From positions 1-12,815 of the forward strand of contig JAJDTN010000277.1 in assembly GCA_022827165.1 (NCBI GenBank): 12,815 nucleotides of DNA, in the 5' to 3' direction. The notes under the pieces are model-generated. The model was given only the letters and a program-made list of their open reading frames with translations. It made no database searches and had not been told where the DNA came from. Both the position numbers and the translations under genes were made by a program. Below are positions 1 to 12,815 of this stretch, in pieces. Within the stretch, counting starts at the first letter, position 1, and each line of letters starts with the position of its first letter. Origin of the DNA: Candidatus Latescibacterota bacterium. GTDB taxonomy: Bacteria > Latescibacterota > UBA2968 > UBA8231.

Positions 1-153
1 GATGGCGCGGCCCGGAAGGGAGGCGCCGAGGGGAGCCCCCAGCATGACGGCGAAGTAGATCTCGAAGAGGAGGGTGTACAGCAGCCAGCCCGCCGCCGTC
101 AGGAGGACGCCGCGCGGCGTGATGCGCGGCAGGGGTGGCAGGACCTGGGTCAT
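1..153 (-). CDS. N-terminal fragment of an unidentified membrane protein
   Basis: The 51 codons read from an ATG at 151-153 and run off the left window edge without a stop, so the gene is partial at its 3' end. The fragment starts MTQVLPPLPRITPRG and is followed by a hydrophobic stretch (about residues 16-40, rich in Leu, Ala, Tyr and Phe). That stretch looks like a first transmembrane helix after a short cytoplasmic tail. It lies 54 nt downstream of the hypothetical gene at 208-789 on the same strand, so the two may be co-transcribed. I see no convincing Shine-Dalgarno before the ATG. A GC-rich hairpin (171-186) sits in the short gap and could affect expression. The short N-terminus would fit a multi-pass protein such as a LytS-type sensor kinase or a transporter, but nothing seen is diagnostic. 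Confidence 0.55.
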   Translation of the reverse strand, partial: MTQVLPPLPRITPRGVLLTAAGWLLYTLLFEIYFAVMLGAPLGASLPGRAI

Positions 154-207
154 CTGCGGATGGCGTCCCGGGGGCGCTGCGGCCCCGCGGCCGATGCCCC
201 GCCGGGG

Positions 208-789
208 TCAGGACTCTGCGGCGCCGTCGACCTCGAAGCCGCGGAGGGCGGCGCCGCAGGGATGCCCGTGCAGGGCCGGCGCCATGTGCACCTTGCGCAG
301 GTAGTCGAGCGTCCCCGACAGCTCCTCGAAGCGGTCGGCCATGCCGCGGAAGAGCCGCGCCTGGCGGGCGCCCGCCAGCTGCAGGTGCTCGCCCACGAGG
401 CGGTAGCTCTCGCCCCCTTCCTTCAGGTAGTAGGAGAGGTGTCCGCCGGCCTCGACGTGGGGGCGGAAGACGCCGGACAGGAAGAGGGCGTAGTCGCCGC
501 AGTGGCGCCGCAGGTCGACCTCCCGGTCGAAGGACCAGGCCCGGTCGGAGCCCCACTCCTCCATCAGCTCCAGCAGCAGGTCGGTGAGGGTGTGCAGGGG
601 CCGTCCGCGGCTGTCGCGGACCCGGTACAGCTGGTCGGTGCGGGAAAAGCGGGCGAGCAGGTCGGTGACGTAGTCGGCCAGCTCCCCCGCGCCGAGTCCG
701 AGGCTGGCGAAGCAGGGGCGCACCATGGCCCCGAAGAACCGGCGCAGCGCCGGCGGCGGGGGACGGGATGTGGATGCGCGGGAAACCAT
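208..789 (-). CDS. Conserved hypothetical protein, helical, about 193 aa
   Basis: I do not recognise a named family. The 193-residue product has a Pro/Arg-rich, probably unstructured first 20 residues and then a mostly helical soluble body. I see no signal peptide or membrane segment. Notable patches are ADYVTDLLARFSRTDQLYRV (about 38-57), RRHCGDYALFLSGVF (about 94-108) and SYYLKEGGESYRLVG (about 118-132). From memory, similar patterns occur in uncharacterised proteins of about 200 residues in Acidobacteria and deltaproteobacteria; this was not searched. The ATG at 787-789 is chosen because a perfect TATAAT in minus orientation lies at 804-809, which would give a leader of only about 8 nt. 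No Shine-Dalgarno is visible there. An in-frame ATG at 724-726 is the alternative and would remove the Pro-rich tail. The gene is divergent from the RNB-like gene at 864. Confidence 0.75.
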   Translation of the reverse strand: MVSRASTSRPPPPALRRFFGAMVRPCFASLGLGAGELADYVTDLLARFSRTDQLYRVRDSRGRPLHTLTDLLLELMEEWGSDRAWSFDREVDLRRHCGDYALFLSGVFRPHVEAGGHLSYYLKEGGESYRLVGEHLQLAGARQARLFRGMADRFEELSGTLDYLRKVHMAPALHGHPCGAALRGFEVDGAAES

Positions 790-803
790 GGCGGCCGCCG
801 CAG

Positions 804-809
804 ATTATA
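804..809 (-). promoter_or_regulatory. Candidate -10 element (TATAAT) for the 208-789 gene
   Basis: The plus strand reads ATTATA here, an exact TATAAT on the minus strand. It is conspicuous in such GC-rich DNA. Transcription would start near 797, about 8 nt before the ATG at 789, giving an almost leaderless mRNA. No good minus-strand -35 lies at 16-18 nt. The best match (TCGACA at 833-838) is 23 nt away, which is too far for a classical promoter. Confidence 0.45.
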
Positions 810-825
810 GGCCCTCGGATTGCGG

Positions 826-854
826 TTGACACTGTCGAAGTGGAGAGGATACCC
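826..854 (+). promoter_or_regulatory. Candidate sigma70-type promoter for the RNB/sigma/polymerase-like operon
   Basis: A perfect TTGACA -35 hexamer lies at 826-831. It is followed after 16 nt by GATACC (848-853), or after 17 nt by ATACCC, as a weak -10. Transcription would start near 860, only a few bases before the ATG at 864, so the message is probably leaderless or nearly so. The -35 falls where the -35 region of the opposing minus-strand promoter would lie, so the two promoters probably compete. Confidence 0.5.
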
Positions 855-863
855 TCACAGACC

Positions 864-2960
864 ATGGTCCGCTGGCCGCGACATCTGACCAACTCCCTCG
901 ACGACGCCTCCCGCCGGGAGGTGGCGCGCCTGGTGCAGGCCGAACGCGGCGCGAAGCCCGCTCTCGAGCGCGCCGGCGCCGTGCTGGAGTTCCGCCGCGG
1001 GGGCCAGCTTCAGTGCGGGTATCTCGCCCGGGATCCGCAGAACCGCAGGGGCTACGAGGTCGTCGGCGTCGACGGCCGGCGGCTCCACCTCCGCCGCGAC
1101 AAGGTGGTGGACGTATCCCCCGAGTACGTGTCGATGCACACGCCCGAGACGGCGCTGTCCGACCTCCGCCGCATCGACCGGAGGCGCGAGGAGGCCCGTG
1201 GCGCCGTCGACCTCACCGCCCTCTGGCAGGTCGCTCTCGAAGCGGGCCCGGAGGGCGGCGAGTGGCGCCTCGACGATCTGGTCGAGCTCCACGACCCCCG
1301 CGATCCGACCGCCAGCCGCCGGGCCGGCATGCTCCGGGCCCTGTGGCGCGGCCACCGGTTCGAGCGCCACGGCGCCCGCTGGCGCCCCCGCTCCCCGGCG
1401 GCGGTGGAGAGGATCGAGGCGTCCTCCGCCCGCGAGGAGGTGGAGGAGGGCCGCCAGGCCGAGCTGGCCTCGTGGGTCCGAAGGGTCGCCGACGGGCATC
1501 CATCCAGCCCCCGTCCCGCCGGGGCGGACTCGGCGGTGAACCTGCTCGAGGCCGCCGCCCTGGGCGAGGCGAGCGCGGAGGCCGCCCGTCTCATGAAGGC
1601 GGCCCACCTGCACGGGAGCGCCGCCGCCTTCGACGTCCTCGTCCGTCTGGGTCACTGGTCCGCCGACGAGAACCTGGAGCTGCACCGCCTCGGCCTGCCC
1701 GTGAGGTTCTCCGAGGCGGCGGTGAAGGCGGCGCGCGGCCTCGATCCCTCGACCGTCTTCGCGGGGTGGGCAGGCCGCCGCCGCTGGGGCGCCGGTCTCT
1801 GCGTCACCCGCTGCGGCCAGCGGGCCTACCGTCTCCGCCGGAGCCTGCTCGGCCACACCGTCGTCGACATCCACGTGGCCGTGCCGGCCCTGTGGGTGGA
1901 GGACGGCGGCGCCATCGATCAGGAAGCCGCCGCCCGGGGCCTCAGCGTGCGCCTGCTGGAGCGGGAGATCCCGATGCTGCCGCCGGAGCTGACCGACGCC
2001 TGCCGGCTGACGGCGGACGAGGCCCGACCCGTCCTGATCCTGAGCGTGCGCCTGGACCGCGAGCTGGCGCCGCGGAGGGTGCGGCTGTCCCTGGGCCGCT
2101 CCCGGCCCCGGGCGGCCCTCGCGGCCGGGGAAGGCAGCGCCCCGGTGCGCCGCCTGGCGGCGCTGGCCGAGGGGCTGCGGGACAGACGGCGGCGAGCGGG
2201 GGCCTGGCAGCAACTGCATCCCGCCGACCGGATCGCGGTCCTCCAGGGGCGGGCGGCGCCGGCGGCGGAGGGGGTGGCGGATCGCATCGACTCGGAGCTG
2301 CGCCTGCTCGCGGCCGAAGCGATCGCCCGCCTCTGCCGCGACGCGGCGCCCGCGATCCACGCGGCGCGCGAGGCCCCGCCCGCCGAGTCCGGGATCCCCG
2401 GCGCCGCCGACTCCACGTCGGCCGAGGTCCTCCGCACCCATCTGCTCGAGGGCGGTGCCCCCCGCGAGAGGCTCGGGACGCCGCCGGCCCCCCACGCGGG
2501 GCTCGGACTGCCGGCCTGCGCCCCGGGCGCCAGCCCCCTGTCGAGCTACGTCGACCTGGCCATGCAGCGGCAGTTGCTGTGGATCGCGGGCCGGCGCTCC
2601 GACCCCCTCACGGCGGAGGACCTCGAGCGCATCCTGCTGGAGACGCGCGAGGCCCGGGAGGCGGCGGAGCGCGTGCGCCGCGGCAGCCGCCGCTACTGGA
2701 CGCTCAAGTGGCTCGAGGGCTTCGGGGACGAGGCGCGCCTGGAGTGCGTGGTCGCCGAACCGCGCGGCCCCGGGCACCTGGTACTGCTGCCCGAGGGTCC
2801 GGTGGCGTGCCATGTCCCGGCCCCCCGGGGGCAGCGGCTGCAGGCGGCGCCGGGCCAGCGCCTGCGGGTGCGGGTGGAGCAGGCCTCCGCCCGGCGCGAC
2901 CTGTTGCGGCTGGCAGACCCCGAGCCCGCCCGGAGAGCGGACCCGCTCCCCCCGGCCTGA
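864..2960 (+). CDS. RNase II/R-family (RNB domain) protein lacking the catalytic aspartates; probable pseudonuclease
   Basis: This 698-residue protein has the layout of an HTH-type bacterial RNase II (Deinococcus DR2417-like / cyanobacterial Zam-like). It has an SH3-like small barrel (about 36-85, GAVLEFRRGGQLQCGYL), a winged-helix region (about 115-180), an RNB domain (about 245-600) and a C-terminal S1-like barrel (about 610-685). RNB landmarks are clear: IHVAV (336-340), IPMLPPELTDAC (369-380), RPVLILSV (388-395) and ASPLSSYVDLAMQRQL (556-571). The catalytic TIDxxxTxDxDDAL segment should precede IHVAV, but the protein reads VTRCGQRAYRLRRS with no acidic residue. The normally invariant SPIRRYxDL arginines are Ser-Ser (SPLSSYVDL). 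Both changes predict loss of nuclease activity with the RNA-binding fold kept. The ATG at 864 fits the promoter just upstream; GTG at 933 is a less likely start. It heads the operon and stops 2 nt before the propeller gene. Confidence 0.88.
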   Translation: MVRWPRHLTNSLDDASRREVARLVQAERGAKPALERAGAVLEFRRGGQLQCGYLARDPQNRRGYEVVGVDGRRLHLRRDKVVDVSPEYVSMHTPETALSDLRRIDRRREEARGAVDLTALWQVALEAGPEGGEWRLDDLVELHDPRDPTASRRAGMLRALWRGHRFERHGARWRPRSPAAVERIEASSAREEVEEGRQAELASWVRRVADGHPSSPRPAGADSAVNLLEAAALGEASAEAARLMKAAHLHGSAAAFDVLVRLGHWSADENLELHRLGLPVRFSEAAVKAARGLDPSTVFAGWAGRRRWGAGLCVTRCGQRAYRLRRSLLGHTVVDIHVAVPALWVEDGGAIDQEAAARGLSVRLLEREIPMLPPELTDACRLTADEARPVLILSVRLDRELAPRRVRLSLGRSRPRAALAAGEGSAPVRRLAALAEGLRDRRRRAGAWQQLHPADRIAVLQGRAAPAAEGVADRIDSELRLLAAEAIARLCRDAAPAIHAAREAPPAESGIPGAADSTSAEVLRTHLLEGGAPRERLGTPPAPHAGLGLPACAPGASPLSSYVDLAMQRQLLWIAGRRSDPLTAEDLERILLETREAREAAERVRRGSRRYWTLKWLEGFGDEARLECVVAEPRGPGHLVLLPEGPVACHVPAPRGQRLQAAPGQRLRVRVEQASARRDLLRLADPEPARRADPLPPA

Positions 2961-2962
2961 GA

Positions 2963-4315
2963 ATGCTCCGAGCGGGCCCCTCCGCGGCCCTCGCGGGGGC
3001 CTGCTGGCTGCTGGCCGGGGCCGCCGCCGCGGGTGAGCCGGAGACCGAGGCAAGCCGATTCTGGCCCGCCTGGCGCGGCCCCCTGGGCACCGGCGCCTCT
3101 CCCCACGCGGAGCCCCCGCTCCAGTGGAGCCAGACCCGCAACCTGCGCTGGAAGGCGTCCCTGCCCGGCGGCGGCCACTCTACGCCGGTGGTCTGGGGCG
3201 ACCGGGTCTTCATCACCGCCGCAGTCCCGTACGGCGAGCACCTGCCGCCGACGTACAGCGGGCTGCCGGGCGGCCACGACGAACGGCCGGTCACCCATCG
3301 CCACCGGTTCGTCGTCCTCGCCCTGAGCCGCACCACGGGGCGGGTCCTCTGGCAGCGGGTCGTGCGCCACGACCTGCCCCGCGCCGGGGGCCACTACACC
3401 GCCAGCCTGGCCTCCGCCTCGGCGGTGACCGACGGCGAGCACCTGGTCGCCTCCTTCGGCTCCCACGGGATCTACGGCCTCGACCTCGAGGGGGAGCTGC
3501 TGTGGGAGTTGGACCTCGGCCCCATGGAGCCGCTTCACGGCCACGGCGAAGGCAGCTCGCCGGCGCTCGCCGGCGGGACGCTGATCGTCAACTGGGACCA
3601 CGAGGGCGAGTCCTTCCTCGCCGCCTTCGACAAGAGGACGGGCGCCCTGCGCTGGAAGGCTCCGCGCGAGCCGGCCTCATCCTGGACCACCCCCATCGTG
3701 ACCGACGCCGGCGGCCGCATCCAGGTCGTGGTCAGCGGCTCCGGGGGAGTGCGCGGCTACGACCTGGCCGACGGCCGCAGGATCTGGGAGTGCCCGGGGC
3801 TCTCGGTGGAGAACGTGGTCGCCACGCCGGTGGCCGGCTTCGGCCTCGTCTTCGCGGGCAGCAGCTACGACCGGCAGGCGGTGCTGGCGATCCCGCTGCA
3901 ACCCGCCGCGGACGAGACCGGCGGACCCCGCCGGGCCGCCTGGAGCCGCACCCGGGGCGCCCCGTACGTCCCCTCCTTCCTGCTCTACGGAGACACCCTC
4001 TACTTCGTCCGCCACTTCCAGAACATCCTCACCCGCGTCGACGCCCGAACGGGGCGGGACCGGCCGGGGCCGATGCGCCTGCAGGGCCTCGACCGGGTCT
4101 TCGCCTCTCCCGTCGCCGCTGCCGGCCGCGTGTACGTCACCAGCCGCAACGGCGTCACCGTGGTGGTCAGCCACGCCGACTCGCCCGCCCTCCTGGCCGT
4201 CAACCATCTCGACGACAGCTTCAGCGCCTCGGCGGCACTGGCCGGCGGCGAGCTCTACCTGCGAGGACGACACCACCTCTACTGCATCGCCGAGCATCCG
4301 CCCCCGGCCCGGTGA
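2963..4315 (+). CDS. Secreted PQQ-like beta-propeller protein (BamB/PQQ_2-type repeats)
   Basis: The 450-residue product starts MLRAGPSAALAGACWLLAGA and has a hydrophobic core and an Ala-rich cleavage site near residues 21-24, so it is exported by Sec to the periplasm or outside. The rest is a beta-propeller of PQQ-like blades, with the recurring pattern of a small residue, Asp/Ser, x-x-T-G-x-x-x-W: SRTTGRVLWQ (122-131), DLEGELLWE (174-182), DKRTGALRW (223-231) and DLADGRRIW (267-275). The entry motif FWPAWRGPLGTG (33-44) is typical of secreted PQQ-propellers common in planctomycetes and related bacteria. I see no dehydrogenase-specific features or cytochrome motif, so it is likely a scaffold or ligand-binding protein. 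Its ATG is 2 nt after the RNB stop and has no clear Shine-Dalgarno, which suggests translational coupling. A secreted protein is unexpected between an RNB protein and a sigma factor. Confidence 0.87.
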   Translation: MLRAGPSAALAGACWLLAGAAAAGEPETEASRFWPAWRGPLGTGASPHAEPPLQWSQTRNLRWKASLPGGGHSTPVVWGDRVFITAAVPYGEHLPPTYSGLPGGHDERPVTHRHRFVVLALSRTTGRVLWQRVVRHDLPRAGGHYTASLASASAVTDGEHLVASFGSHGIYGLDLEGELLWELDLGPMEPLHGHGEGSSPALAGGTLIVNWDHEGESFLAAFDKRTGALRWKAPREPASSWTTPIVTDAGGRIQVVVSGSGGVRGYDLADGRRIWECPGLSVENVVATPVAGFGLVFAGSSYDRQAVLAIPLQPAADETGGPRRAAWSRTRGAPYVPSFLLYGDTLYFVRHFQNILTRVDARTGRDRPGPMRLQGLDRVFASPVAAAGRVYVTSRNGVTVVVSHADSPALLAVNHLDDSFSASAALAGGELYLRGRHHLYCIAEHPPPAR

Positions 4316-4355
4316 ACCCGGCAGGCGCCGGCGGTGTCAACCGGGTGGAGGCCGG

Positions 4356-4961
4356 ATGGGGAAGAGCGACGAGGAGCTGGTCCGCGGGGTGATCGAGGGG
4401 CGGCAGGAAGACTTCGCCGAACTCTTCGAGCGCTACCGCGCCGATGTGCAGCGGCACCTGCGGCGGATCCATCGCCATGACGAGGACGCCGCCGACGTAG
4501 GGCAGGAGGTGTTCCTGCGCCTGTGGCACCGCGCCGGACAGTGGAAGGGCGACGGCCCCCTGCTCGCCTGGCTGCTGCGCATCGCCACCAACCTCGCCCT
4601 CAACCACATCCGCTCGGTCCGCCGACGCCGCGAGCAGCCGCTGCAGCCGCCCCCCGCCATGGACGGAGAGGAGGAGGACGACACCCGGGTTCCGGAGTGG
4701 ATGATCGACGCCTCCACCCTTCCGCCCGACGAGGTCCTGGCCGTGGCGGAGCGCCGGCGGCTGCTGCGCGGCCTGGTGACGCGCCTGCCCGAGGACGGGC
4801 GCAGGGTCATCCGGCTGGTCTACGACGGCCACCTGAACACGCGCCAGGCCGCTGCCGAGCTGGGCATACCCGAGGGCACGGTGAAGTCCCGGATCCACCA
4901 CGCCCGCAAACAGATCGCTCGATCCTGGCGCGACCTGGGGATCGACTGGGAGGAGGACTAG
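4356..4961 (+). CDS. ECF-family RNA polymerase sigma factor (sigma-70 group 4)
   Basis: The 201-residue protein has the two ECF domains. Sigma2 covers about 18-92: FAELFERYRADVQ, then the region 2.2 motif DAADVGQEVFLRLW (44-57) and AWLLRIATNLALNHIR (71-86). Sigma4 covers about 133-190: LPEDGRRVIRLVYDGHLNT and the recognition helix-turn-helix AAAELGIPEGTVKSRIHHAR (165-184). An acidic linker (about 100-120, DGEEEDD) joins them. There is no extra C-terminal domain. A Shine-Dalgarno GGAGG lies at 4347-4351, 4 nt before the ATG. No anti-sigma factor follows, which is unusual. Instead, the polymerase-like gene starts 2 nt after the TAG, and its Shine-Dalgarno lies in the last sigma codons. ECF factors normally direct the beta-beta' core to specific promoters by sigma2 contact with the beta' coiled-coil and sigma4 contact with the beta flap. 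The neighbouring polymerase-like protein lacks both of those sites. Confidence 0.93.
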   Translation: MGKSDEELVRGVIEGRQEDFAELFERYRADVQRHLRRIHRHDEDAADVGQEVFLRLWHRAGQWKGDGPLLAWLLRIATNLALNHIRSVRRRREQPLQPPPAMDGEEEDDTRVPEWMIDASTLPPDEVLAVAERRRLLRGLVTRLPEDGRRVIRLVYDGHLNTRQAAAELGIPEGTVKSRIHHARKQIARSWRDLGIDWEED

Positions 4962-4963
4962 GC

Positions 4964-7900
4964 ATGGCGACCGCACCGTCCAACCCGTGGCACAAGGCGT
5001 CCTTCGACGAATTCCTGCACCGCCGCCTTCCCGAGTTGCTGGCCGCACGGCTGGGGGTGACCACCTGCCGCGCCGCAGGGGCCGGCGGTCACGCCTGCCG
5101 GATCGTCCTCGGCGGGCGTTCCGCCGAGGGGGACTTCGAGATCGAGTACGACGGGCTGCCCGCACCGGACGAGGAGGGCGTCTTCCGGTTGCCGGGTTCC
5201 CCGGACCCGGACGGCGGGCCCCGCCTGCCGCCCCCGAGGACGTACCACGGCGGGGAGCGCGAGCCCTCGGGCGAAGTCGAGCTGGTCGTGCTGCCCGTGG
5301 CCGACCGGGACGACCTGGCCGAGGCCCGAATCGACTGTCTCGGCGACCGGCTCTCGACCTTCATCGAGTCCCGCCTCGGGGAGGTCCCCGGCCACACCCC
5401 CCTCGACGGGTCCCTCCTGCGGACCCTGGCGCCTCTGAAGGACTGGTTCCACTCCTTCCTGGCCTCCTGCGGCGAGCGGCTCGACGACACCAACTGGCTG
5501 TCCCGGTCCGCGCACCTGCGCCGGATCCTGGTCCCGGACCGCCAGGAGGTGTTCACCCCGGGCCACTTCGGCCGCACCTGCCCCTTCGAGACCCCGGAGG
5601 GACCGAACATCGGCCGCGTCCTGACGATCTCCCGGGGCGCCGAGATCCGCGGCCGCCGGCTGGCGATCGTCGACGCGAAGCCCGCGGAGGGACTGGGCAT
5701 GTCCAGCGCCTGCATCCCCTTCCTCGAGCACGACGACGGCAACCGCGTGCTCATGGGCGCCAACATGATGCGCCAGTGGCTGGCGCCCGCCGAGAGAGAG
5801 CCGGCCTTCGTGCGGACCGGCCTGGAGCCGCGGGCGCCGGACTTCTGGTGCGGCCGGAACCTGCTCACGGCTCTGCTCTCCTGGGACGGGGACGCCTTCG
5901 AGGACGCCGTGCTGCTCAGCCGGTCCGGCGCCCGCAAGCTCGCCTGCCCGGAGACCCTCGAGCCCGGCGACAAGCTCAGCAACCGCCACGGGATCAAGGG
6001 CGTCGTGTCCCGGGTGGCGCCCGACGAGGAGATGCCGCGGCTGCCCGACGGCACCCCCGTGGAGCTGGTCTTCAGCTTCTCCGGCATTCCGTCCCGCTGG
6101 GTCATGGGGCTGGTCCGGGAGGCCGCCCTCGGACACGCGGCTCACCTGCGGGGGGAGCCCGCCGTCGTGCCTCCCTTCGAGGCGCCTTCCGACGAACAGT
6201 TGCGGGACCTGCTTCAGGGCAGCGGCCTGCGCGCCGACGGCATGACCACGCTGACCCTCGACGGCACTCCCCTGCGGCGGCCGGCCACGGCCGGATCGGT
6301 GTACTGGGGCTGCACCGTGCATCGCGCTCGCCCGAAACTGAGGGCCGCCGTCCACCCCGACGACCGGGGCCAGCGCCTGGGGGAGATGGAGGTGCGGGCC
6401 CTGGCCGAGGCCGGGGCGCCCGCGGTGATCCGGGAGCTGACCAACACCTGCTCCAGCCAACGCGGCGACGCCGGTTCCCTGGCCGAGAGGGCCGCCGCCG
6501 GACCGGTCGAGCCGGCAAGCACCCCCTCTCCCGCCTTCTCGGCCCTGGCGGCGGGTCTGGCGCAGGCCGGAATCCGCGCCGAGGCCGGCCCCCGGGGGGT
6601 CGCCTTCCGGTTGGAACCACCCCGGGCGCCGACGCTGTCCCTGGCCGCCGGCGTGCCCCACCCCTGGTTGCCGGGAAAGACCCTGTCCGAGGTCTGCGCC
6701 GCCGAGGGGGCCGCCGGATATCCCGAGGTCCTCGCCGCCAACGGCAGGCTCGCCCGTCTGCCGAAGGACGGGGCTCCCGAGCCCCTGGCAGCCGCGGCTC
6801 TCGACGATCTGGCCGCCGCTGTCTCGGCCCTGTACGACGGACTGGCCGCCGCGCCGCGGTTGGGGCGGGATGGGAGTGCCCTCTTCAGCGGCCGTGCGGT
6901 GATCGTCCCCGGGAGCGATCTGCCGGCCGACCGGCTCGGCCTCCCGGCGGAGATGGCCTGGAGCCTCTTCGGGCCGCTGGTGGCCCGCGAGCTGGGGGAT
7001 CCCGAGGCGGTGGGGCAGCGCTCCACCGAGGCCGAGGCCGCCCTCGCCGCCGCCATGGAGGCCCACTGGGTCATCCTCGGCCACGCTCCATCGGTCAGTC
7101 CCACGGCGATGCTGGCCTTCCGGCCCCTGCCGATCCCGGGCCACGCCATCCGCCTCTGCCCCCTGGCCTGCGGCCTCCTGGACGCCGACTTCGACGGCGA
7201 CCAGGCGGCCGTCTTCCTGCCTCTCACGGAGGCGGCTCAGCGCGAGACCCGCGAGCGGCTGTCCATCGCCGGCCACCTGGCCCGTGACCCCGGCCTCGTG
7301 GAGGACCTCTTCCCGCGCATGGACGCCCTCTTCGGGCTGGCCTGCCTGAGCCGCTCGGCAACGGGCCGGAGGGCTATCACGCAAGCCGCCGGCCGGGAGC
7401 CGAACCTCGAGGGCGGCCTCCTCACCCGCGAGGCGGCGGCGAGGCTGCTGCGGGGTGTCCTGACCGACGAGGGGGAGCAGGCGGCCCTGGGCGTGGCCGC
7501 GGAGCTGATGCGGATGGGGTTCGAGACGGCCCGCGCGGAGGGAGGCTCCGTGGGGCCCTTCATCGGCAGCACCCTCGAGCTGCCCGTCCCCGCGGGAGGG
7601 GACGACGCGCCGCAGTGGCAGGCCTGCACGGAGGAAGCCCGGGCGATCGTCGCCGGCTTCCGCGACTACGACGACCACGACCTGGGGGCCGCCGCCCTGC
7701 TGTGCCACAGCGGCGCCCGGGCCACGGTCCATCAGCTCACCACCCTGGTGGGGCCGGGCGGGCTCGTTCGCGACGTCGAGGGCCGGGTCCTCGGAGTCGC
7801 CCGCTCCTGGCGGGAGGGACTGACCGCGCGGGAGGTGCTGGCCCGGGTCGTCGGCGCCCGGCGCGGCCTGTTCCGCGTCCTGACGGAGTTCGGATCCCTC

Positions 7901-8065
7901 GGCCGGGAGCGGTCCGGGTCCGGGACGGGGGGGTTCGGCGTCCTGGCCCGGGCCCGCCGGGTCGAGCGCCCGGGCCTCGTCTTCGCGAGGGCTGCCCTCA
8001 GGGGCGAGGTCGATCCCCTGGAAGACGAGCAATCGCGGCTGCTGGTCGGACTGTCCGGGCCGTGA
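4964..8065 (+). CDS. Compact single-chain RNA polymerase: fused, truncated beta and beta' subunit homologue (1033 aa)
   Basis: Residues about 155-540 match RpoB: NWLSRSAHLRR (177-187), CPFETPEGPNIG (206-217), DDGNRVLMGANMMRQ (257-271), FEDAVLLS (312-319), GDKLSNRHGIKGVVSR (335-350), MPRLPDGTP and GIPSR (357-378), GQRLGEMEV (469-477). Residues about 612-985 match RpoC: FSGRAVIV (641-648), ILGHAP (704-709), DADFDGDQAAV (740-750), MDALFGL (786-792), the F-loop (about 852-868), the bridge helix SGARATVHQLTTL (916-928), and WREGLTAREVL (949-959). Active-site residues are kept: beta R678, E813/D814, K1065, K1073, R1106 correspond to R261, E313/D314, K337, K345, R378 (E. coli numbering); the beta' Asp triad is D742/D744/D746. 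Absent are most of the beta lobes, the beta flap, the beta' zinc ribbon and clamp coiled-coil, and the trigger loop with everything beyond it. A normal beta plus beta' pair is over twice as long. The reading frame is intact, with GGAGGA (4952-4957) before the ATG. This is not the housekeeping rpoBC. Confidence 0.93.
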   Translation: MATAPSNPWHKASFDEFLHRRLPELLAARLGVTTCRAAGAGGHACRIVLGGRSAEGDFEIEYDGLPAPDEEGVFRLPGSPDPDGGPRLPPPRTYHGGEREPSGEVELVVLPVADRDDLAEARIDCLGDRLSTFIESRLGEVPGHTPLDGSLLRTLAPLKDWFHSFLASCGERLDDTNWLSRSAHLRRILVPDRQEVFTPGHFGRTCPFETPEGPNIGRVLTISRGAEIRGRRLAIVDAKPAEGLGMSSACIPFLEHDDGNRVLMGANMMRQWLAPAEREPAFVRTGLEPRAPDFWCGRNLLTALLSWDGDAFEDAVLLSRSGARKLACPETLEPGDKLSNRHGIKGVVSRVAPDEEMPRLPDGTPVELVFSFSGIPSRWVMGLVREAALGHAAHLRGEPAVVPPFEAPSDEQLRDLLQGSGLRADGMTTLTLDGTPLRRPATAGSVYWGCTVHRARPKLRAAVHPDDRGQRLGEMEVRALAEAGAPAVIRELTNTCSSQRGDAGSLAERAAAGPVEPASTPSPAFSALAAGLAQAGIRAEAGPRGVAFRLEPPRAPTLSLAAGVPHPWLPGKTLSEVCAAEGAAGYPEVLAANGRLARLPKDGAPEPLAAAALDDLAAAVSALYDGLAAAPRLGRDGSALFSGRAVIVPGSDLPADRLGLPAEMAWSLFGPLVARELGDPEAVGQRSTEAEAALAAAMEAHWVILGHAPSVSPTAMLAFRPLPIPGHAIRLCPLACGLLDADFDGDQAAVFLPLTEAAQRETRERLSIAGHLARDPGLVEDLFPRMDALFGLACLSRSATGRRAITQAAGREPNLEGGLLTREAAARLLRGVLTDEGEQAALGVAAELMRMGFETARAEGGSVGPFIGSTLELPVPAGGDDAPQWQACTEEARAIVAGFRDYDDHDLGAAALLCHSGARATVHQLTTLVGPGGLVRDVEGRVLGVARSWREGLTAREVLARVVGARRGLFRVLTEFGSLGRERSGSGTGGFGVLARARRVERPGLVFARAALRGEVDPLEDEQSRLLVGLSGP

Positions 8066-8068
8066 CGG

Positions 8069-8085
8069 CCGGGGCGTGCCCCCGG
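8069..8085. terminator. GC-rich hairpin between convergent genes, possible bidirectional terminator
   Basis: CCGGGG (8069-8074) pairs with CCCCGG (8080-8085) across a 5-nt loop. It lies 3 nt after the polymerase-like stop and in the 57-nt gap before the convergent paraslipin stop. There is no T-tract on either strand. CGGCCGG occurs twice in the gap (8066-8072 and near 8110-8116). It is placed like a terminator, but the signal is weak. Confidence 0.35.
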
Positions 8086-8122
8086 GAGTGGTGTCGAGTG
8101 TCGGCCCGGCGGCCGGCAGCGC

Positions 8123-9052
8123 TTAGCCGTCCGGCCCGCGCAACTCGATGGCGTCCAGCAGTTGCTGAGGGTTGGCCAGGTCCACGGGCAGGAGCACGTC
8201 CGTCTTGCCGTCGGCCAGACCGCGCAACGTCTTGAGATAACGCTCCGCCAGCTGCAGGTGCACCGACTGGGCGCCGCCGGCGACGCTGATCGAGGCGGCG
8301 ATCTTCTCGATCGACTCGGCCGTCGCATGGGCGATGGCCCGGACCTCCTCGGCCTGACCCTGGGCCTCGTTGATGGTGCGCTGCATCTCGCCCTCCGAGC
8401 GGTTGATCAGCTCCAGGCGCCGGCCCTCCGAGGTGTTGATGCGGCTCTGCTTGTCGCCCTCGGACTGGGCCACGACGGCGCGGCGGTCGCGCTCGGCGGT
8501 GACCTGCTTCTCCATGGCGTCCTTCACCGTCGGCGGCGGCGACAGGTTCTTGATCTCGTAGCGGTGGACGCGGATCCCCCAGGTCTCCCCCGACCTCTCC
8601 AGCACCTCCACCACTTTGGCCGAGATCAGGTCGCGCTCCTCGAAGGTCCGGTCGAGCTCGAGGGTGCCGATGACCGAACGGGTCGTGGTCTGCGCCAGTT
8701 GCATGGCGGCGAAGGAGTAGTTGGTCACCCCGTAACTGGCCTTCACCGGATCGGTGACCGAGATGTAGAGGACGCCGTCCACCTCGACCTGGACCTCGTC
8801 CCGGGTGAAGCACTCCTGGGGAGGCACGTCGACGGTCTCCTCCTTGAGATCGCGGATGAAGGCCACCTTCTCGATGAAGGGCACGAGGGCGTGGAAACCG
8901 GGGTTCAGAGTTCTGGAGTACTTGCCGAGCCGCTCGACGACGTACGCCGACTGGGTCGGCACCAGCCGGATCGAGCGCAGGAACTTGACGATCAGGACCA
9001 GGAACAGAACGCTCCAGACGATGAGGTTGAAGATCTCGAAGACGGTCGACAT
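8123..9052 (-). CDS. SPFH/band-7 paraslipin (QmcA/stomatin-like), second tandem copy
   Basis: The 309-residue protein begins with one membrane helix (about 7-27, IFNLIVWSVLFLVLIV). An SPFH domain follows (about 28-190), with the family signatures VPTQSAYVVERLGKYSRTL, PGFHALVPFIEKVAF and VEVDGVLYISVTDP. A charged coiled-coil (about 180-250) carries SEG repeats (SEGDKQ, SEGRRLELINRSEGEMQ), and an Ala/Gly-rich tail ends the protein. Such proteins form large oligomeric rings at the inner membrane that organise proteases or membrane microdomains. The ATG at 9050-9052 follows the upstream paralogue's stop by 1 nt. Its Shine-Dalgarno (GGAGG, minus strand, 9059-9063) lies inside that gene, so the two are translationally coupled. 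It resembles its neighbour across the whole length, indicating an old tandem duplication. Heteromeric rings, like HflK/HflC, are plausible but inferred. Confidence 0.92.
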   Translation of the reverse strand: MSTVFEIFNLIVWSVLFLVLIVKFLRSIRLVPTQSAYVVERLGKYSRTLNPGFHALVPFIEKVAFIRDLKEETVDVPPQECFTRDEVQVEVDGVLYISVTDPVKASYGVTNYSFAAMQLAQTTTRSVIGTLELDRTFEERDLISAKVVEVLERSGETWGIRVHRYEIKNLSPPPTVKDAMEKQVTAERDRRAVVAQSEGDKQSRINTSEGRRLELINRSEGEMQRTINEAQGQAEEVRAIAHATAESIEKIAASISVAGGAQSVHLQLAERYLKTLRGLADGKTDVLLPVDLANPQQLLDAIELRGPDG

Positions 9053-9053
9053 G

Positions 9054-9986
9054 TCAGGCCTCCTTCTTCTGGTTCGGCACGCCGCCGGAGACCTCTCCCA
9101 GCCCCTCGAAGAAGCCCTTGATCCGGGCCAGCTCCAGGGGCACGACGGAGACGCTGGACTTGGCGGCGATCTCCCGGATCGTCTCGATGTACTCCTCCAC
9201 CAGCTGCATCTTCAGCGCCGCCGGTCCGCCTTCCTTCTGCACCGCGGCGGCGATCCGCTCGGTGCCCTCGGCGGTGGCCTCGGCGATGATCGAGATCGCC
9301 TCGGCCTGTCCCCTGGCGACGTTGATCCGGCGTTGCTTCTCGCCCTCGGAGATGTTGATCTCCTCCTGGCGCTCGCCCTCGGAGAGGTTGATGGTGCTCT
9401 CCTTCTCCGCCGCGGCGCGGGTGATCTCGGCGCGCTTCTCGCGCTCCGCCTCCATCTGCTTCTCAAGGGTATTCACCACGTTCGCCGAGGGCGTGATGTT
9501 GCGCAGCTCGTAGCGCAGCACCTTGATCCCCCAGGGATTCGAGGCCTTGTCGATCTCCTGGACGATCGTCTCGTTCAGGGACTCGCGCTCGTAGAACGAC
9601 TGGCCCAGGGTCAGCTTGCCGATCTCGGCCCGCATCGTCGTCTGCGCCAGGTTGATGCTGGCGCGGCGGTAGTCCTCGATGCCGTAGCTGGCGCGCTCGG
9701 GATCGAGGACCTGCAGGTAGACCAGGCCGTCCACCTCGACCTGGATGTTGTCGCGCGTGATGCAGGCCTGGCTGGGGACGTCGATCACCTGCTCGCGCGT
9801 CTCGTGGCGATAGGCGATGCGGTCGAAAAAGGGGATGAGGAAGTGGAACCCCGGCTGCAGGACCGCCCGGAACTTGCCCAGCCGCTCGACGATGACCGCC
9901 GCGCGCATGGGCACGACGACAAATGTCTTGAGCACCAGGAACAGGGCGATCAGCACGAGGATCGTGAAGTACGTCAGAAGGGGCAT
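9054..9986 (-). CDS. SPFH/band-7 paraslipin (QmcA/stomatin-like), first tandem copy
   Basis: The 310-residue protein has an N-terminal membrane helix (about 4-24, LTYFTILVLIALFLVLKTFVV). The SPFH domain (about 25-190) shows VPMRAAVIVERLGKFRAVL, PGFHFLIPFFDRIAYRHETR, VEVDGLVYLQVLDPERASYG and NLAQTTMRAEIG. The coiled-coil has a short tandem repeat (INLSEGERQEE, INISEGEKQRR, INVARGQAEAI, about 205-237), a hallmark of paraslipins. The tail is GG- and Lys-rich. The ATG at 9984-9986 is preceded by AGGAGA (minus strand, 9995-10000) with 8 nt spacing, and it follows the NfeD stop by 3 nt. The order nfeD, slipin, slipin fits the known pairing of NfeD proteins with SPFH partners, where NfeD's C-terminal OB fold is thought to interact with the slipin. 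Confidence 0.93.
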   Translation of the reverse strand: MPLLTYFTILVLIALFLVLKTFVVVPMRAAVIVERLGKFRAVLQPGFHFLIPFFDRIAYRHETREQVIDVPSQACITRDNIQVEVDGLVYLQVLDPERASYGIEDYRRASINLAQTTMRAEIGKLTLGQSFYERESLNETIVQEIDKASNPWGIKVLRYELRNITPSANVVNTLEKQMEAEREKRAEITRAAAEKESTINLSEGERQEEINISEGEKQRRINVARGQAEAISIIAEATAEGTERIAAAVQKEGGPAALKMQLVEEYIETIREIAAKSSVSVVPLELARIKGFFEGLGEVSGGVPNQKKEA

Positions 9987-9989
9987 CGC

Positions 9990-10454
9990 TCAATTCTCCT
10001 GTAAGGGACCGCCGCCGTCGGGCCCGGCGGCCTCGACGACCCACACGAGGTTCTCGCGATAGGCGAGGATCGCCTTCTCTCCCGCCTCGATGGTGCGGTC
10101 GTAGCAGATCGCCTGCCAGGTGGCGTCCCGGTAGTGGATCCGCCCCGCCTGGTCCGGCGCGATCCTCTCCACCACGTCCACGACCGTGCCGTAGGCGTCC
10201 TCCTCCTCGTCGGTGGACTGTCGCTCGGACCCGCCTCCGACGAAGCGCAGGAAGAGGCCGCGCAGGCTCAGCAGCAGGACGAGGGAGAGGATGAACCAGG
10301 TGGTGAGGGCCGGGATCAGGCCGTCGATCCAGCCCAGCCAGATGAGGGCGGCCACGATCAGGGCGCTCGACCCGAGAAAGCCGAGCACCATTCCGGGCAG
10401 GAACAACTCCAGCAGGATCATGACGGCGCCGGCGACGATCCAGGCTGTGAGCAT
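9990..10454 (-). CDS. nfeD: NfeD-family membrane protein (short form)
   Basis: The 154-residue protein starts MLTAWIVAGAVMILLELFLPG. It has two or three membrane helices (about 5-22, 25-45 and 52-70), including the ELFLPGMVLGFLG motif typical of short NfeD proteins. After an acidic linker (about 82-90), a C-terminal OB-fold domain (about 90-150) contains GTVVDVVERIAPDQAGRIHYRD. It lacks the ClpP-like serine protease domain of long NfeD proteins. The ATG at 10452-10454 is chosen because GGAGG (minus strand, 10459-10463) lies 4 nt upstream and the first helix begins right after it. The open frame extends further upstream but encodes an Arg/Pro-rich stretch with no family resemblance. It is the first gene of the nfeD-slipin-slipin operon. 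Confidence 0.92.
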   Translation of the reverse strand: MLTAWIVAGAVMILLELFLPGMVLGFLGSSALIVAALIWLGWIDGLIPALTTWFILSLVLLLSLRGLFLRFVGGGSERQSTDEEEDAYGTVVDVVERIAPDQAGRIHYRDATWQAICYDRTIEAGEKAILAYRENLVWVVEAAGPDGGGPLQEN

Positions 10455-10552
10455 AGGGCCTCCGGGTATTGGCAGGCGGAGACGGCGTCGGGGAAGGATA
10501 GGGCGGATGAGAGGGGGGAGCGAGATTGCGGGGAAGGCCGGGCGCCCGGAGC

Positions 10553-10580
10553 GCACCGGGGCGGCCTCCCCCGGCGGTGC
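10553..10580 (-). terminator. Imperfect GC hairpin downstream of the DinB-like gene
   Basis: GCACCG (10553-10558) pairs with CGGTGC (10575-10580), with extra G-C pairs inside (GGG 10559-10561 with CCC 10570-10572) after a small bulge. It lies just 3' of the DinB-like stop in minus-strand sense. A 12-bp palindrome CCGGGCGCCCGG (10538-10549) and a pyrimidine-rich minus-strand stretch follow. There is no clean U-tract, so a rho-independent role is tentative. The rest of the 132-nt gap (10455-10586) shows no gene. Confidence 0.4.
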
Positions 10581-10586
10581 AAGGGA

Positions 10587-11060
10587 TCAGCCGATCCACT
10601 GCCGCCACTGCTCGGGCAGCTCCTTGCCGAGGGAGCGCAGGTACACGCTCACCTTGGCGCAGAAGATCAGGATCGACTCGCGGTAGATGTGGAACTGCAC
10701 CCCCACGGGCACGCTGTAGGCCCCGCGATCGATCTGCTTGCCCTGCACGTCCTCCTCGCCGAGGGCTTGGAGGGCCGCCTTCAGGGCGGCGTCCGAGCGG
10801 GCGTACCACTCCCGCAGGACCGATACCCTCGTCTCCGCTCCCCCGGGGGCCGGCCGCTCCTTCCAGTCCACGGCGAAAGTCCGGAAGGAGTCGGTATAGA
10901 TCTCCTCCAGCTGGCCCGCCTCGCGGCACAGCGCGCCGAGAGACGGGTTGCCGGGCAGGGCGTGAGCGAGATCGGCGTCGCCCAGGACGTCCAGCAACTG
11001 TGTGCGCAGCGAGAGGGTCTGCTCCAGCAGAGGGAGCTCCCGTTCCGCGAGACTGTTCAT
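10587..11060 (-). CDS. DinB-superfamily protein, probably without the usual metal site
   Basis: The 157-residue, all-helical protein shows DinB/YfiT-like spacing: LLDVLGDADLAHALPGNPSLG (about 22-42), LCREAGQLEEIYTDSFRTF (44-62), a middle helix with REWYARSDAALKAALQAL, and a C-terminal helix leading to VYLRSLGKELPEQWRQWIG. Classical members bind a metal through three His residues on this four-helix bundle. Here the first expected His (in a W/L-x-x-H-x-x-x-x-E setting) is absent (LCREAGQLE), and only one candidate, in QFHIYRES, is evident late in the protein. A metal-free variant is therefore likely. The ATG at 11058-11060 is preceded by GGGAGG (minus strand, 11065-11070) at 4 nt. No signal peptide is seen. 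Function is unknown; DinB proteins include thiol-dependent transferases. Confidence 0.78.
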   Translation of the reverse strand: MNSLAERELPLLEQTLSLRTQLLDVLGDADLAHALPGNPSLGALCREAGQLEEIYTDSFRTFAVDWKERPAPGGAETRVSVLREWYARSDAALKAALQALGEEDVQGKQIDRGAYSVPVGVQFHIYRESILIFCAKVSVYLRSLGKELPEQWRQWIG

Positions 11061-11109
11061 GGTTCCTCCCGTTGGGTGAGCCCCCCGCCCCGGCGCAGCC
11101 CGTTTTCGC

Positions 11110-11138
11110 TTGACTTCTCCCTCCGGAGCGGTTAGGGT
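11110..11138 (+). promoter_or_regulatory. Candidate promoter for the secreted FnIII/dockerin-like gene
   Basis: TTGACT (11110-11115) is a 5/6 match to the -35 consensus. It is followed after 17 nt by TAGGGT (11133-11138), a GC-adapted -10. The predicted start near 11145 leaves a leader of about 44 nt with a strong Shine-Dalgarno. Confidence 0.5.
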
Positions 11139-11188
11139 GCTGAACCGGCCTGTCATCAGCGGCCCCGCTCAACCTCCGGAGGTAACGT

Positions 11189-11947
11189 ATGCTCTCTCTC
11201 AGGAAGGGAACCACCGCCGGCCTGTGCGCCGCCATCCTCTGCTTCGGCCCCGTCCGCTCCGACGCCCAGAGCGGGTTGGTCCGCGCCGTCGACGACATTC
11301 CGCCCGCGCCGGTCACCGGCCTCACGGCCGTTCTCATGGAGGACAACATCCTCCTGACCTGGAACGCCTCGGACGACGACAGCGCCGTGGGATCGACCTT
11401 CGGCGGGCAGCACGTCTATCGCAACCTCGTCCACGGATACCGCGTATACCGAAGCATCGACGGCGGCGAGCCGTCGGAGATCGGCAGCACCCCGCCCGGC
11501 ATCACGGAATACACCGACACCGACATCATCACCGGCGGCGGGGTCTACGTCTACGACGTACGCGCCTACGACTCCGACAACGAGGCCATGCTGGCCATCG
11601 AGCCCGGGTCCGAGGCCGACCGGGCCCGTACCGTCACCCCGGCCCCGCTGCCTCGCGATGCCGATGGCAATCTGGTCCTCGGCTGGTTCAGTTACGAGGG
11701 CGTGAGAGTCGGCCTGGACGACTTCTTTCTGCTCCACGAGAATCTCGGCCGGAAGGAAGGTGACGAGGACTTCGAGCCGGTCTACGACCTGAATGCCGAC
11801 GGTGTCGTCGGGTTCGACGACTTCTTCATCTTCAACGACCACTTCCGCACCGAAATCGCCAACGCCGACGAAGTCCAGGAGTTCATCACCTCGGCTGGAA
11901 GCGCCGAGGCGATCAACGCGGCCATCGCTTTCCAGATCAAGGAATAG
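11189..11947 (+). CDS. Secreted protein with a fibronectin type III domain and a dockerin-like calcium-repeat pair
   Basis: The 252-residue product begins MLSLRKGTTAGLCAAILCFG, a Sec signal peptide that probably ends near SDAQ (residue 27). Residues about 36-150 form an FnIII-type beta-sandwich: PPAPVTGLTAVLMEDNILLT, W-x-A-S, HGYRVYRSIDGG, YTDTDI, YVYDVRAYDSDN. After a linker come two EF-hand-like loops: DADGNLVLGWFSYEGVRVGLDDFFLLHENLG, shown here only as its ends (about 157-187), and DLNADGVVGFDDFFIFNDHF (about 198-217). The second has the Asp/Asn ladder of a calcium loop followed by FDDFFIF, as in dockerin type I repeats. The first is atypical. ATG 11189 has GGAGGT (11178-11183) 5 nt upstream. 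There is no C-terminal sorting tail. Its role could be cell-surface attachment or binding to a cohesin-like partner, but none is encoded here. Confidence 0.87.
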   Translation: MLSLRKGTTAGLCAAILCFGPVRSDAQSGLVRAVDDIPPAPVTGLTAVLMEDNILLTWNASDDDSAVGSTFGGQHVYRNLVHGYRVYRSIDGGEPSEIGSTPPGITEYTDTDIITGGGVYVYDVRAYDSDNEAMLAIEPGSEADRARTVTPAPLPRDADGNLVLGWFSYEGVRVGLDDFFLLHENLGRKEGDEDFEPVYDLNADGVVGFDDFFIFNDHFRTEIANADEVQEFITSAGSAEAINAAIAFQIKE

Positions 11948-11969
11948 CCTCCTTCCTCGGTCACACGGG

Positions 11970-11990
11970 CGGCCCCCGACCCGGGAGCCG
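11970..11990 (+). terminator. GC-rich hairpin after the FnIII/dockerin-like gene
   Basis: CGGCCCCCG (11970-11978) pairs with CGGGAGCCG (11982-11990): nine positions, one C-A mismatch, 3-nt loop. It begins 22 nt after the TAG. No T-run follows, so termination is uncertain. The remaining gap to 12056 is GC-rich and shows nothing else. Confidence 0.4.
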
Positions 11991-12056
11991 CTGACCCGGC
12001 CTCACCGCCCGAGCCCGGCCCGGATTCGTCTCGCCCCGCCGGCAGCGGCAGTCCTC

Positions 12057-12815
12057 ATGAAGATCGTCGTTCTCGATGGCTACACCCTGAATCCCGGCGA
12101 CCTCAGCTGGTCCGGTCTCGAATCCTTGGGCGATGTCACCGTTCACGAACACTCCACCGCCGATCAGGTCCTGGAGAGAGCCCACGGCGCCGAGATCCTG
12201 CTGACCAACAAGACCGTCGTCTCCGGTGAGCACATCGCCCGGCTCCCCGGCCTGCGGTACATCGGCGTGCTGGCCACGGGCTTCAACATCGTCGACGTGG
12301 AAGCCGCCCGTGAGCGCGGCATCCCGGTGTGCAACGTGCCCACCTACGGCACCGCCTCGGTAGCCCAGGCCGCCATCGCCCACCTCCTCAACCTGACCCA
12401 GCGCATCGGCGACCACGCCGCCGCCGTCAACGCCGACCGCTGGGCCGAGTGCCGGGACTTCAGCTTCTGGGACCACCCTCTCGTCGAGCTCGAGGGACTC
12501 CTCTTCGGCGTCGTCGGCATGGGCCGCATCGGCCGCCGCACCGCCGAGCTGGCGAGGGCCTTCGGCATGCAGGTCCTGGCCCACACGCGCACCCCCGATC
12601 CGTCCCTCGACTGGGTGGAGCACGCGGGTGTGGACGACCTCTTCCGCCGCTGTGACGCGGTCTCCCTGCACTGCCCGCTGACGCCGGAGACCGAGGGGAT
12701 CGTCGATCGCAGGCGGCTGTCGCTGATGAAGCCGACGGCCTTCCTCATCAACACGAGCCGCGCGCCGCTGGTGGACGAGGAGGCCCTGAGAGAGGCTCTC
12801 GAGGAGGGGCGCATC
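12057..12815 (+). CDS. hprA: D-2-hydroxyacid dehydrogenase, glycerate dehydrogenase/hydroxypyruvate reductase type (partial)
   Basis: The 253 codons run from ATG 12057 to the window end without a stop, so the C-terminus (about 60-70 residues) is missing. The N-terminus MKIVVLDGYTLNPGDLSW is characteristic of bacterial glycerate dehydrogenases. Next are the substrate-domain motif VLATGFNIVD (71-80), NVPTYGTASVAQ (93-104), the NAD-binding Rossmann loop VVGMGRIGRRTAELA (152-166), HCPLTPET (205-212), and INTSRAPLVDEEAL (231-244) with the catalytic Arg235. The catalytic Glu and His lie beyond the window. The enzyme reduces hydroxypyruvate to D-glycerate (or a similar 2-keto acid) with NAD(P)H in the cytoplasm. 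The Shine-Dalgarno is weak (GGCAG region, about 12046-12050). It is 109 nt from the upstream gene. The exact substrate is inferred from N-terminal similarity only. Confidence 0.9.
   Translation, partial: MKIVVLDGYTLNPGDLSWSGLESLGDVTVHEHSTADQVLERAHGAEILLTNKTVVSGEHIARLPGLRYIGVLATGFNIVDVEAARERGIPVCNVPTYGTASVAQAAIAHLLNLTQRIGDHAAAVNADRWAECRDFSFWDHPLVELEGLLFGVVGMGRIGRRTAELARAFGMQVLAHTRTPDPSLDWVEHAGVDDLFRRCDAVSLHCPLTPETEGIVDRRRLSLMKPTAFLINTSRAPLVDEEALREALEEGRI

Follow-up and report, generated by a model that had tools for sequence, protein, structure and literature searches.

This analysis concerns a stretch of 12,815 nucleotides (nt) from a Candidatus Latescibacterota bacterium (assembly GCA_022827165.1, contig JAJDTN010000277.1, positions 1 to 12,815), called here the window. 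On its forward strand lies a two-gene unit in which the gene of an extracytoplasmic function (ECF) sigma factor is followed by the gene of a small, single-chain homologue of the beta and beta' subunits of RNA polymerase (RNAP), called here the mini-polymerase. The features of the unit are listed below, with residues numbered in the mini-polymerase.

4313..4338, + strand: promoter-like element TGAAC-N16-GTGTC, separated by 17 nt from the sigma start codon
4356..4961, + strand: ECF sigma factor, 201 amino acids, with regions 2 and 4 (PF04542, PF08281 and TIGR02937 over their cut-offs)
4964..8065, + strand: single-chain miniature beta-beta' RNA polymerase homologue, 1033 amino acids, its ATG 2 nt past the sigma stop codon
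4964..6463, + strand: beta-like half, about residues 1-500
5852..6316, + strand: beta barrel region, residues 297-451, with D314, K337, K345 and R378; the interrupting flap is gone
6710..6850, + strand: beta' clamp helices, residues about 583-629, aligned with NRNNRL of 8/8 host beta' rows; predicted helices 586-601 and 606-627
6881..7228, + strand: beta' barrel region, residues 640-755 (profiles, alignment and predicted fold)
7181..7201, + strand: DADFDGD motif, residues 740-746, with the catalytic aspartates D742, D744 and D746 (alignment)
7826..7909, + strand: bridge helix, residues 955-982, first half conserved, second divergent; predicted helix 955-982
7910..7942, + strand: site of the absent trigger loop, residues 983-993 (span measurements)
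7943..8053, + strand: C-terminal conserved block, residues 994-1030, counterpart of beta' GLKENV, aligned in 8/8 host beta' rows

A reduced beta-beta' core in one chain

The ATG at 4964 opens a single frame of 1033 codons whose stop codon ends at 8065, so that beta and beta' are not separate chains here. A preliminary description of this DNA, made from the letters alone, had read RpoB motifs followed by RpoC motifs in this frame, at less than half the combined size of the normal subunits. NCBIfam models agreed, placing RpoB (TIGR02013, E 1.2e-48) upstream of RpoC (TIGR02386, E 6.4e-29), and the 1033 amino acids amount to about 39% of rpoB plus rpoC (1269 and 1368 amino acids, open frames of the host genome G001). 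In the Pfam searches which that description had proposed, Rpb2 domain 3, Rpb2 domain 6 and Rpb1 domain 2 exceeded their cut-offs, and Rpb2 domain 7 fell short of its own. By sequence, the closest solved structures were bacterial beta chains (Bacillus subtilis 6wvj_C, E 6.4e-42) and beta' chains. Bacterial models outscored archaeal ones for both halves (RpoB 165.6 bits versus 27.3-93; RpoC 100.4 bits versus 19.9-23.4), which identifies the mini-polymerase as a reduced enzyme of bacterial type. Judged from its sequence, the protein is a miniaturised single-chain bacterial-type beta-beta' core.

Structure prediction, also proposed at the outset, gave a confident RNAP-like fold with a mean predicted local distance difference test score (pLDDT) of 92.8 from a 95-row alignment, which replaced a 22-row alignment with a pLDDT of 61.7. 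The predicted fold includes clamp helices and a bridge helix; the rows of the VIA-align comparison span model residues ~1-545 only and so stop short of the beta' half.

Catalytic residues kept and modules lost

Conservation was assessed in two alignments. Labels beginning with L denote genome-contig loci, those with P proteins from the protein search and those with G host genomes. The first alignment had 153 rows and left out L017, L031, L032, L034, L039, L041, L042 and L043 (broken, cut or mis-started) as well as P0029, P0030 and P0034 (900 amino acids or less). The second had 200 rows, namely the window protein and 199 listed proteins of at least 950 amino acids, five proteins below 950 amino acids being excluded. 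Both sets consist of best matches including close relatives, and their rows are not independent. For the comparison of motifs, pieces of the hosts' housekeeping subunits (four of beta, eight of beta') were aligned with family members.

All six core catalytic residues were present in 189 of the 200 aligned proteins. By position, D744 and D746 were found in 200/200, K337 and K345 in 198 each, D742 in 197 and R378 in 196; the catalytic aspartate triad and the two active-site lysines are thus kept. The residues named in the preliminary description (K337, K345, E313, D314, R261, R378, D742, D744 and D746) were numbered correctly and fall on housekeeping motifs. Every host motif found by expressions aligned with its counterpart in the mini-enzyme, except the second half of the bridge helix and the trigger loop. 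Among the beta motifs, FED was in register in 4/4 rows, GDK..GRHG.KG, MGANM.RQ and GQR.GEME in 3/4 each, SRMN in 2/4 and ETPEG in 1/4, the remaining rows being unmatched by the motif expression. Among the beta' motifs, the clamp helices, YSGR, NADFDGD and GLKENV were in register in 8/8 rows, NRAP in 7/8, GARKGL in 6/8 and SGARG in 4/8, the other rows again being unmatched. For the second half of the bridge helix a single host row matched, out of register. Clamp helices and bridge helix are present in the alignment as well as in the predicted fold.

Other modules of the large enzyme are missing. The span from D314 to K337 measured 19-48 residues in 153/153 family rows (also 200/200), compared with 151-271 in the four host beta rows; the beta flap domain is therefore gone. 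Likewise, the span from R966 to R996 measured 27-38 residues in 153/153 family rows (27-46 in 200/200 of the larger set), compared with 351-483 in the eight host beta' rows, and the trigger-loop motif of 7/8 host beta' rows fell into a gap at residue 987, the eighth row being unmatched by the expression. The short span and the motif in the gap together indicate that the trigger loop is gone as well. The sequence RTFH was present in two family members, where it lies in the beta half. Two CxxC motifs 5-60 residues apart, as expected of the zinc-binding cysteines of beta', were found in none of the 153 members.

Two further positions differ in the window copy. We take positions 707 and 740 to correspond to R425 and N458 of Escherichia coli beta', which contact the ribose. 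Position 707 was R in 192/200 proteins. The 8 with H were the window protein and, of its nine nearest relatives, all but P0007 and P0009, which have R; in the 153-row alignment L001 and L018 had H as well, and L024-L027, L033 and L037 had S. At position 740, N prevailed (135/200), followed by Q (31) and D (27); the window protein and its nine nearest relatives all have D. The window copy thus carries H707 and D740 in place of the ordinary ribose-contacting R and N, and with both ribose-sensing residues replaced its lineage may have an altered sugar selection. The active site had been described beforehand as intact. This holds for the catalytic aspartates, lysines and arginine, and it fails for the trigger loop and the beta flap, which are absent, and for the two replaced residues.

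Extent and descent of the family

The preliminary description had proposed a search for orthologues. With the window protein as query, 327 proteins were found at E<=1e-3 (7993 candidates scored); with a deep-branching member from Armatimonadota as query, the number was 322 (7995 scored). From each search the best 120 rows were listed. The best 27 rows were single proteins of 1005-1092 amino acids covering 99-100% of the query. Among the matches listed, all proteins with a readable source name were called hypothetical protein. A scan of genome contigs yielded 51 loci, of which L001-L043 are family members; L044-L049 and L051 were rejected as ordinary or other RNAPs, and L050 as a short piece joined to an unrelated frame.

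The 43 family loci lie in metagenome-assembled genomes (MAGs) named as Gemmatimonadota, Latescibacterota, Poribacteria, Hydrogenedentota, Armatimonadota and Chloroflexota, that is, six phyla by name. Since L001 and L037 (hosts G006 and G005, named Gemmatimonadaceae and Gemmatimonadetes) share their searched phylum with the Latescibacteria-named G001 and G003, five phyla are perhaps nearer the truth. The gene was found in at least 22/64 genomes in the phylum of G006, in at least 5/400 in that of G007 (L021, named Chloroflexi) and in at least 17/291 in that of G013 (L004, named Armatimonadetes). Usually there was one match per genome, with a second, partial match in G059 and G063; the scans of the G007 and G013 phyla scored two candidates per genome and may have passed over second copies. 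In a tree of 37 members, the grouping mostly followed the named phylum, with 9 label changes against a shuffled mean of 20.2 and 0/200 shuffles as low. Such a pattern fits a history of long vertical inheritance with patchy loss or transfer.

Other origins were considered and rejected. An assembly artefact or chance does not account for 327 homologues, nor for members on records titled 'chromosome: 1', e.g. OX638329.1. As to a phage or plasmid gene, none of 65 plasmid and 35 phage records covered 80% of the query and all were below 60% identity; among 20 rows of each, the annotated ones were RNAP subunits and several were unannotated. In IMG/VR 5 loci matched, 22-40% identical over parts of the query as judged from the match table. 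A known defence protein was not indicated either, PADLOC assigning 0 families to five window proteins. In keeping with the preliminary description, which knew of no such family, no account of this one was found among the titles and abstract openings listed from the open full-text literature of PubMed Central (PMC), a body that excludes preprints and subscription papers and whose silence is no proof.

A dedicated ECF sigma factor

The preliminary description overlooked the ECF sigma partner and the conserved promoter-like element, as it did the loss of the flap and the cysteine pairs. The sigma factor scored 91.1 bits against TIGR02937 (cut-off 42.9). None of its 9 Pfam rows at E<=1 was a model of sigma region 3, and the combination of regions 2 and 4 with no region 3 is the architecture of an ECF sigma factor.

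A relative of this sigma factor was encoded upstream of the polymerase in 42/43 loci. The sole locus without it was L031, whose polymerase starts at query residue 335 with the first third gone. The gap between the two genes was measured in 37/43 loci, the window included and L008, L017, L029, L030, L041 and L042 left out; it was -4 to +5 nt in 21 pairs, 26-109 nt in 9, 190-324 nt in 4 and more than 1200 nt in 3. When 12 host genomes were searched with the window sigma factor, the best match adjoined the mini-polymerase in 12/12 (154-408 bits), and none of the other ECF sigma factors in the same genomes exceeded 81.2 bits. Pairwise distances of sigma factor and polymerase, computed for 35/43 pairs with the window counted, correlated at r 0.947, compared with 0.234 for the best of 2000 permutations. 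No comparable third gene was seen around the pair: with frames overlapping the pair excluded, the largest clusters of other genes comprised at most 7 loci. From these sequence comparisons, the sigma factor is most likely the dedicated partner of the mini-polymerase.

A conserved promoter-like element and the search for targets

In the window, the TGA of the element at 4313-4338 doubles as the stop codon of the upstream PQQ-type gene. Forty of the 43 sigma genes, the window included and L008, L041 and L042 left out, were examined for TGAAC-N16-GNGTC within 250 nt upstream. The pattern was present in 37/40 regions, and in 31/37 cases it ended 17-26 nt before the sigma start codon; in 200 rounds of dinucleotide shuffling it turned up 0.03 times on average and in 1/40 at most. 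The three regions without the strict element (L029, L030 and L032) belong to one Armatimonadota clade and contain near variants instead. Over 23 non-redundant sites, bases of CGGTGTC that the pattern leaves free also showed conservation (C 83%, G 91%, T 87%).

Genome-wide, the strict pattern occurred at 20 sites in 14 genomes, 9 of them being the sigma factor's own promoter, which was the only strict site in G001, G003 and G004. G006, G007, G009, G010, G012 and G013 together had 10 outside strict sites and 2 of the reversed pattern. Of all 11 outside sites, 7 lay inside same-strand open frames of at least 292 codons. A loose pattern gave 24-46 sites per genome, at or below the reversed control in 7 genomes and above it in 7, and a rough control pattern, with a spacer one base longer and one more position restricted, gave 4 sites in the 14 genomes. 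No second target with the strict promoter form common to several hosts was found among these 14 genomes. A large regulon with the exact promoter is thus unsupported by the site counts; a small regulon is possible. At L166 and L167, in two hosts, strict matches were observed 102 and 42 nt before the ATGs of lipoprotein-like frames, the match at L167 sitting within an open frame; these are possibly further targets or chance matches.

Host polymerase and selection

The preliminary description had called for a check that normal rpoB and rpoC are present as well. In 14 host genomes, all relatives of the window organism, rpoB was over its cut-off in 13 (exception G007), rpoC in 13 (exception G014) and both in 12. 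In those relatives the mini-enzyme is therefore an extra.

The ratio of nonsynonymous to synonymous substitution rates (omega, NG86 method) of the polymerase was 0.148-0.180 in 12/13 pairs, which agrees with the purifying selection that had been proposed as a test. For the sigma factor it was 0.059-0.373 over the same 13 pairs, which were hand-picked and overlap. The relatives of L027 (L024-L026, L033 and L037) combine S707 with E740, yet their omega is about 0.15. None of the three outcomes named beforehand as refuting was seen: orthologues exist, the predicted fold is RNAP-like, and relatives have separate rpoB and rpoC. The earlier view of a functional polymerase, not a decaying copy, gains from the purifying selection and the conserved residues; the word "intact" went too far, and polymerase activity is inferred from the sequences.

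Neighbouring genes and other unusual polymerase frames

Upstream of the sigma gene and on the same strand, the window encodes an RNase II-like RNB protein (864-2960) and a PQQ/BamB-type propeller (2963-4315). A function common with the RNB, PQQ and SPFH neighbours was rejected, these neighbours recurring only in L001 of the 43 family loci. In six Latescibacterota loci a gene two frames upstream of sigma was shared (L006 5395-6354 and homologues in L010, L013, L016, L019 and L038). In the L006 protein, PF01258 (33.3 bits) identified a C4 zinc finger of the DksA/TraR type, and its cysteine pattern recurs in L010, L016, L019 and L038. Since DksA-type proteins act on RNA polymerase, the L006-type zinc-finger protein may be a helper.

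Three of the loci outside the family carry unusual polymerases of their own. L044 6192-12929 (WJIO01000321.1, a Poribacteria-named MAG) is a full-size fusion of alpha, beta and beta', with RpoA, RpoB and RpoC domains in order along a 2246-codon frame; its trigger-loop motif looks degenerate. L049 6369-11480 (DTYX01000739.1, also a Poribacteria-named MAG) joins beta to the C-terminal part of beta' in a 1704-codon frame that lacks the catalytic NADFDGD barrel. L051 3532-7791 (an Aenigmatarchaeota MAG) is a 1420-codon fused frame with B-type and then A-type RNAP motifs.

Proposed mechanism and alternatives

Taken together, the observations point to a small sigma-directed holoenzyme, made of the sigma factor and the one-chain mini-polymerase, that would transcribe at least its own operon. 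We hold this to be probable, with activity and sigma binding inferred from sequence features. The unit would be transcribed from its own TGAAC-N16-GTGTC element. Clamp helices are the usual docking site of sigma region 2, which would dock on those retained here. The flap that normally binds sigma region 4 is gone, so region 4 would have to be held in some other way. The holoenzyme would then open the TGAAC...GTGTC promoter and make RNA by two-metal catalysis on the aspartate triad and the two lysines, with no trigger loop, and it would do without alpha and omega subunits. By analogy with YonO, a polymerase for which trigger-loop-free catalysis is reported (see below), the mini-polymerase is probably less accurate. 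Given a strict promoter without a second target common to hosts, the simplest reading is a self-amplifying, autoregulated system, which would have few targets or targets with differing promoters.

Several observations weigh against this proposal. The bridge helix diverges in its second half, residues 961-990 being the block with the lowest conservation (0.45), and all 153 and all 200 aligned members are without a trigger loop. Residue 740 is other than N in 65/200 proteins. The open frame of L027 (2241-5357, 1039 codons) lacks D742, K337 and K345, and P0110, P0117 and P0180 have N at 742; some members may therefore be inactive, and the L027 branch may have altered its chemistry or shifted to the role of a non-catalytic partner. 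Copies interrupted by stops or frame changes do occur (L017, L042, G400:C1:2623972-2627028 and G710:C318:77-3130), through gene loss or sequencing error. For the pair of window and L001 polymerases omega was 0.388; this higher value in the window clade, together with H707 and D740, suggests that the window copy may be changing in function. In the 14 genomes there were 11 strict sites outside the own operon versus 19 for the reversed pattern. Finally, the spacing of the element looks like that of ordinary ECF promoters, so the sigma factor might work with the housekeeping core.

The main rival explanation casts the mini-polymerase as a decoy, an anti-sigma factor in the shape of a polymerase, which grips the sigma factor through its clamp helices while housekeeping RNAP with the sigma factor transcribes the operon. 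The gene directly behind an autoregulated ECF sigma gene usually encodes its anti-sigma factor, and the mini-polymerase occupies this very position; retained clamp helices, an ECF-like promoter, the loss of the trigger loop and the open 1039-codon frame of L027 without D742, K337 and K345 would all suit such a role. A decoy would have no need for catalytic residues, yet D744 and D746 are kept in 200/200 proteins and K337 and K345 in 198/200 each, and we consider it unlikely.

Alternatively, the protein could be an active polymerase while the sigma factor serves the housekeeping core, in which case the mini-core would be sigma-free and might, for instance, extend RNA or copy RNA or single-stranded DNA like double-barrel RNA-dependent polymerases. 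Its ribose-contact positions are indeed variable, and the flap is absent as it otherwise is in RNA-dependent polymerases and YonO-type enzymes, according to PMC7824862. The near-perfect linkage and co-divergence with one dedicated sigma factor, the retained clamp helices and a plainly bacterial beta-beta' sequence all argue against this explanation and make it improbable. A decaying or inactive rpoBC duplicate retained by chance might be suspected from the loss of several modules, the few interrupted copies and the one copy with catalytic residues lost, but it is highly improbable in view of the constant architecture and length across MAGs named as six phyla, omega values of 0.15-0.18 in 12/13 pairs and near-invariant catalytic residues.

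The sigma-directed mini-polymerase may be put in a wider form: several phyla would carry a second, self-contained transcription system, pairing a dedicated ECF sigma factor with a single polymerase chain of ~1030 residues that needs neither trigger loop, flap and zinc-binding domain nor alpha and omega; acting on their own promoter, the two would form the smallest sigma-guided RNAP known. For this full claim the chances seem to us evenly balanced. Bacteria have, in the textbook view, one RNAP core common to all sigma factors, and a second chromosomal core with its own sigma factor, if real, would break this rule. It would be the simplest sigma-guided transcription machine yet seen, would show which parts are dispensable in sigma-directed transcription (trigger loop, flap, zinc-binding domain and perhaps alpha and omega), and would provide structural studies and orthogonal gene expression with a system of just two proteins.

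Comparison with known polymerases

With the bacterial RpoB/RpoC core the mini-polymerase shares motifs, domain order, catalytic residues, clamp helices and bridge helix. It differs in being one chain of 1033 amino acids without trigger loop, flap and paired CxxC, and an adjunct to separate rpoBC in related hosts. Full-size fused rpoB-rpoC genes exist in Helicobacter and Wolbachia, and are represented by the models PRK09603 and PRK14844. These fusions likewise join beta and beta' in one chain. They are full length, as the preliminary description had said (profile lengths 2890 and 2839), and their cut-offs of 5372 and 4632 bits compare with 145.3 and 155.5 bits for the mini-polymerase, which does not contain full-length beta and beta'. 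Operons of ECF sigma and anti-sigma factors resemble the present unit in having a promoter-like element, an ECF sigma gene and a partner gene downstream; the partner here is a polymerase homologue, not an anti-sigma factor.

YonO of SP-beta is also a bacterial single chain of about 100 kDa with no recognisable trigger loop; PMC5467207 describes a prophage protein whose similarity to cellular RNAP is limited to few residues, which bears out the earlier remark that YonO lacks such close beta/beta' signatures. The same paper reports RNA synthesis as efficient as that of cellular RNAP, lower accuracy and RNA cleavage that was undetected. The mini-polymerase shares neither the sparse resemblance nor the phage location: it is strongly beta-beta'-like (RpoB E 1.2e-48), has its own sigma factor and was not found in the phage, plasmid and viral collections.

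The RNAP of yeast linear plasmids (ORF6/ORF7) resembles it in combining reduced beta and beta' regions in one main chain. According to PMC6211774, that virus-like-element enzyme includes a second subunit, is missing the rim helices and most of the clamp, and is of viral origin; a figure legend labels a bridge helix and a trigger loop. The mini-polymerase keeps clamp helices and has no trigger loop, and so falls outside that group. The RNAPs of jumbo phages and of phage P23-45 are, like it, non-canonical double-barrel polymerases, and they are phage-borne. No sigma factor is reported to have been found for jumbo phages of group 1, in which the counterparts of beta and beta' are split, not fused (PMC7824862, PMC10770324), and the phage enzymes compared in PMC10770324 keep the bridge helix and the start of the trigger loop. 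Unlike the distant YonO and RNA-dependent RNA polymerase types, the mini-polymerase makes the reduction of a large enzyme testable from a clearly bacterial ancestor.

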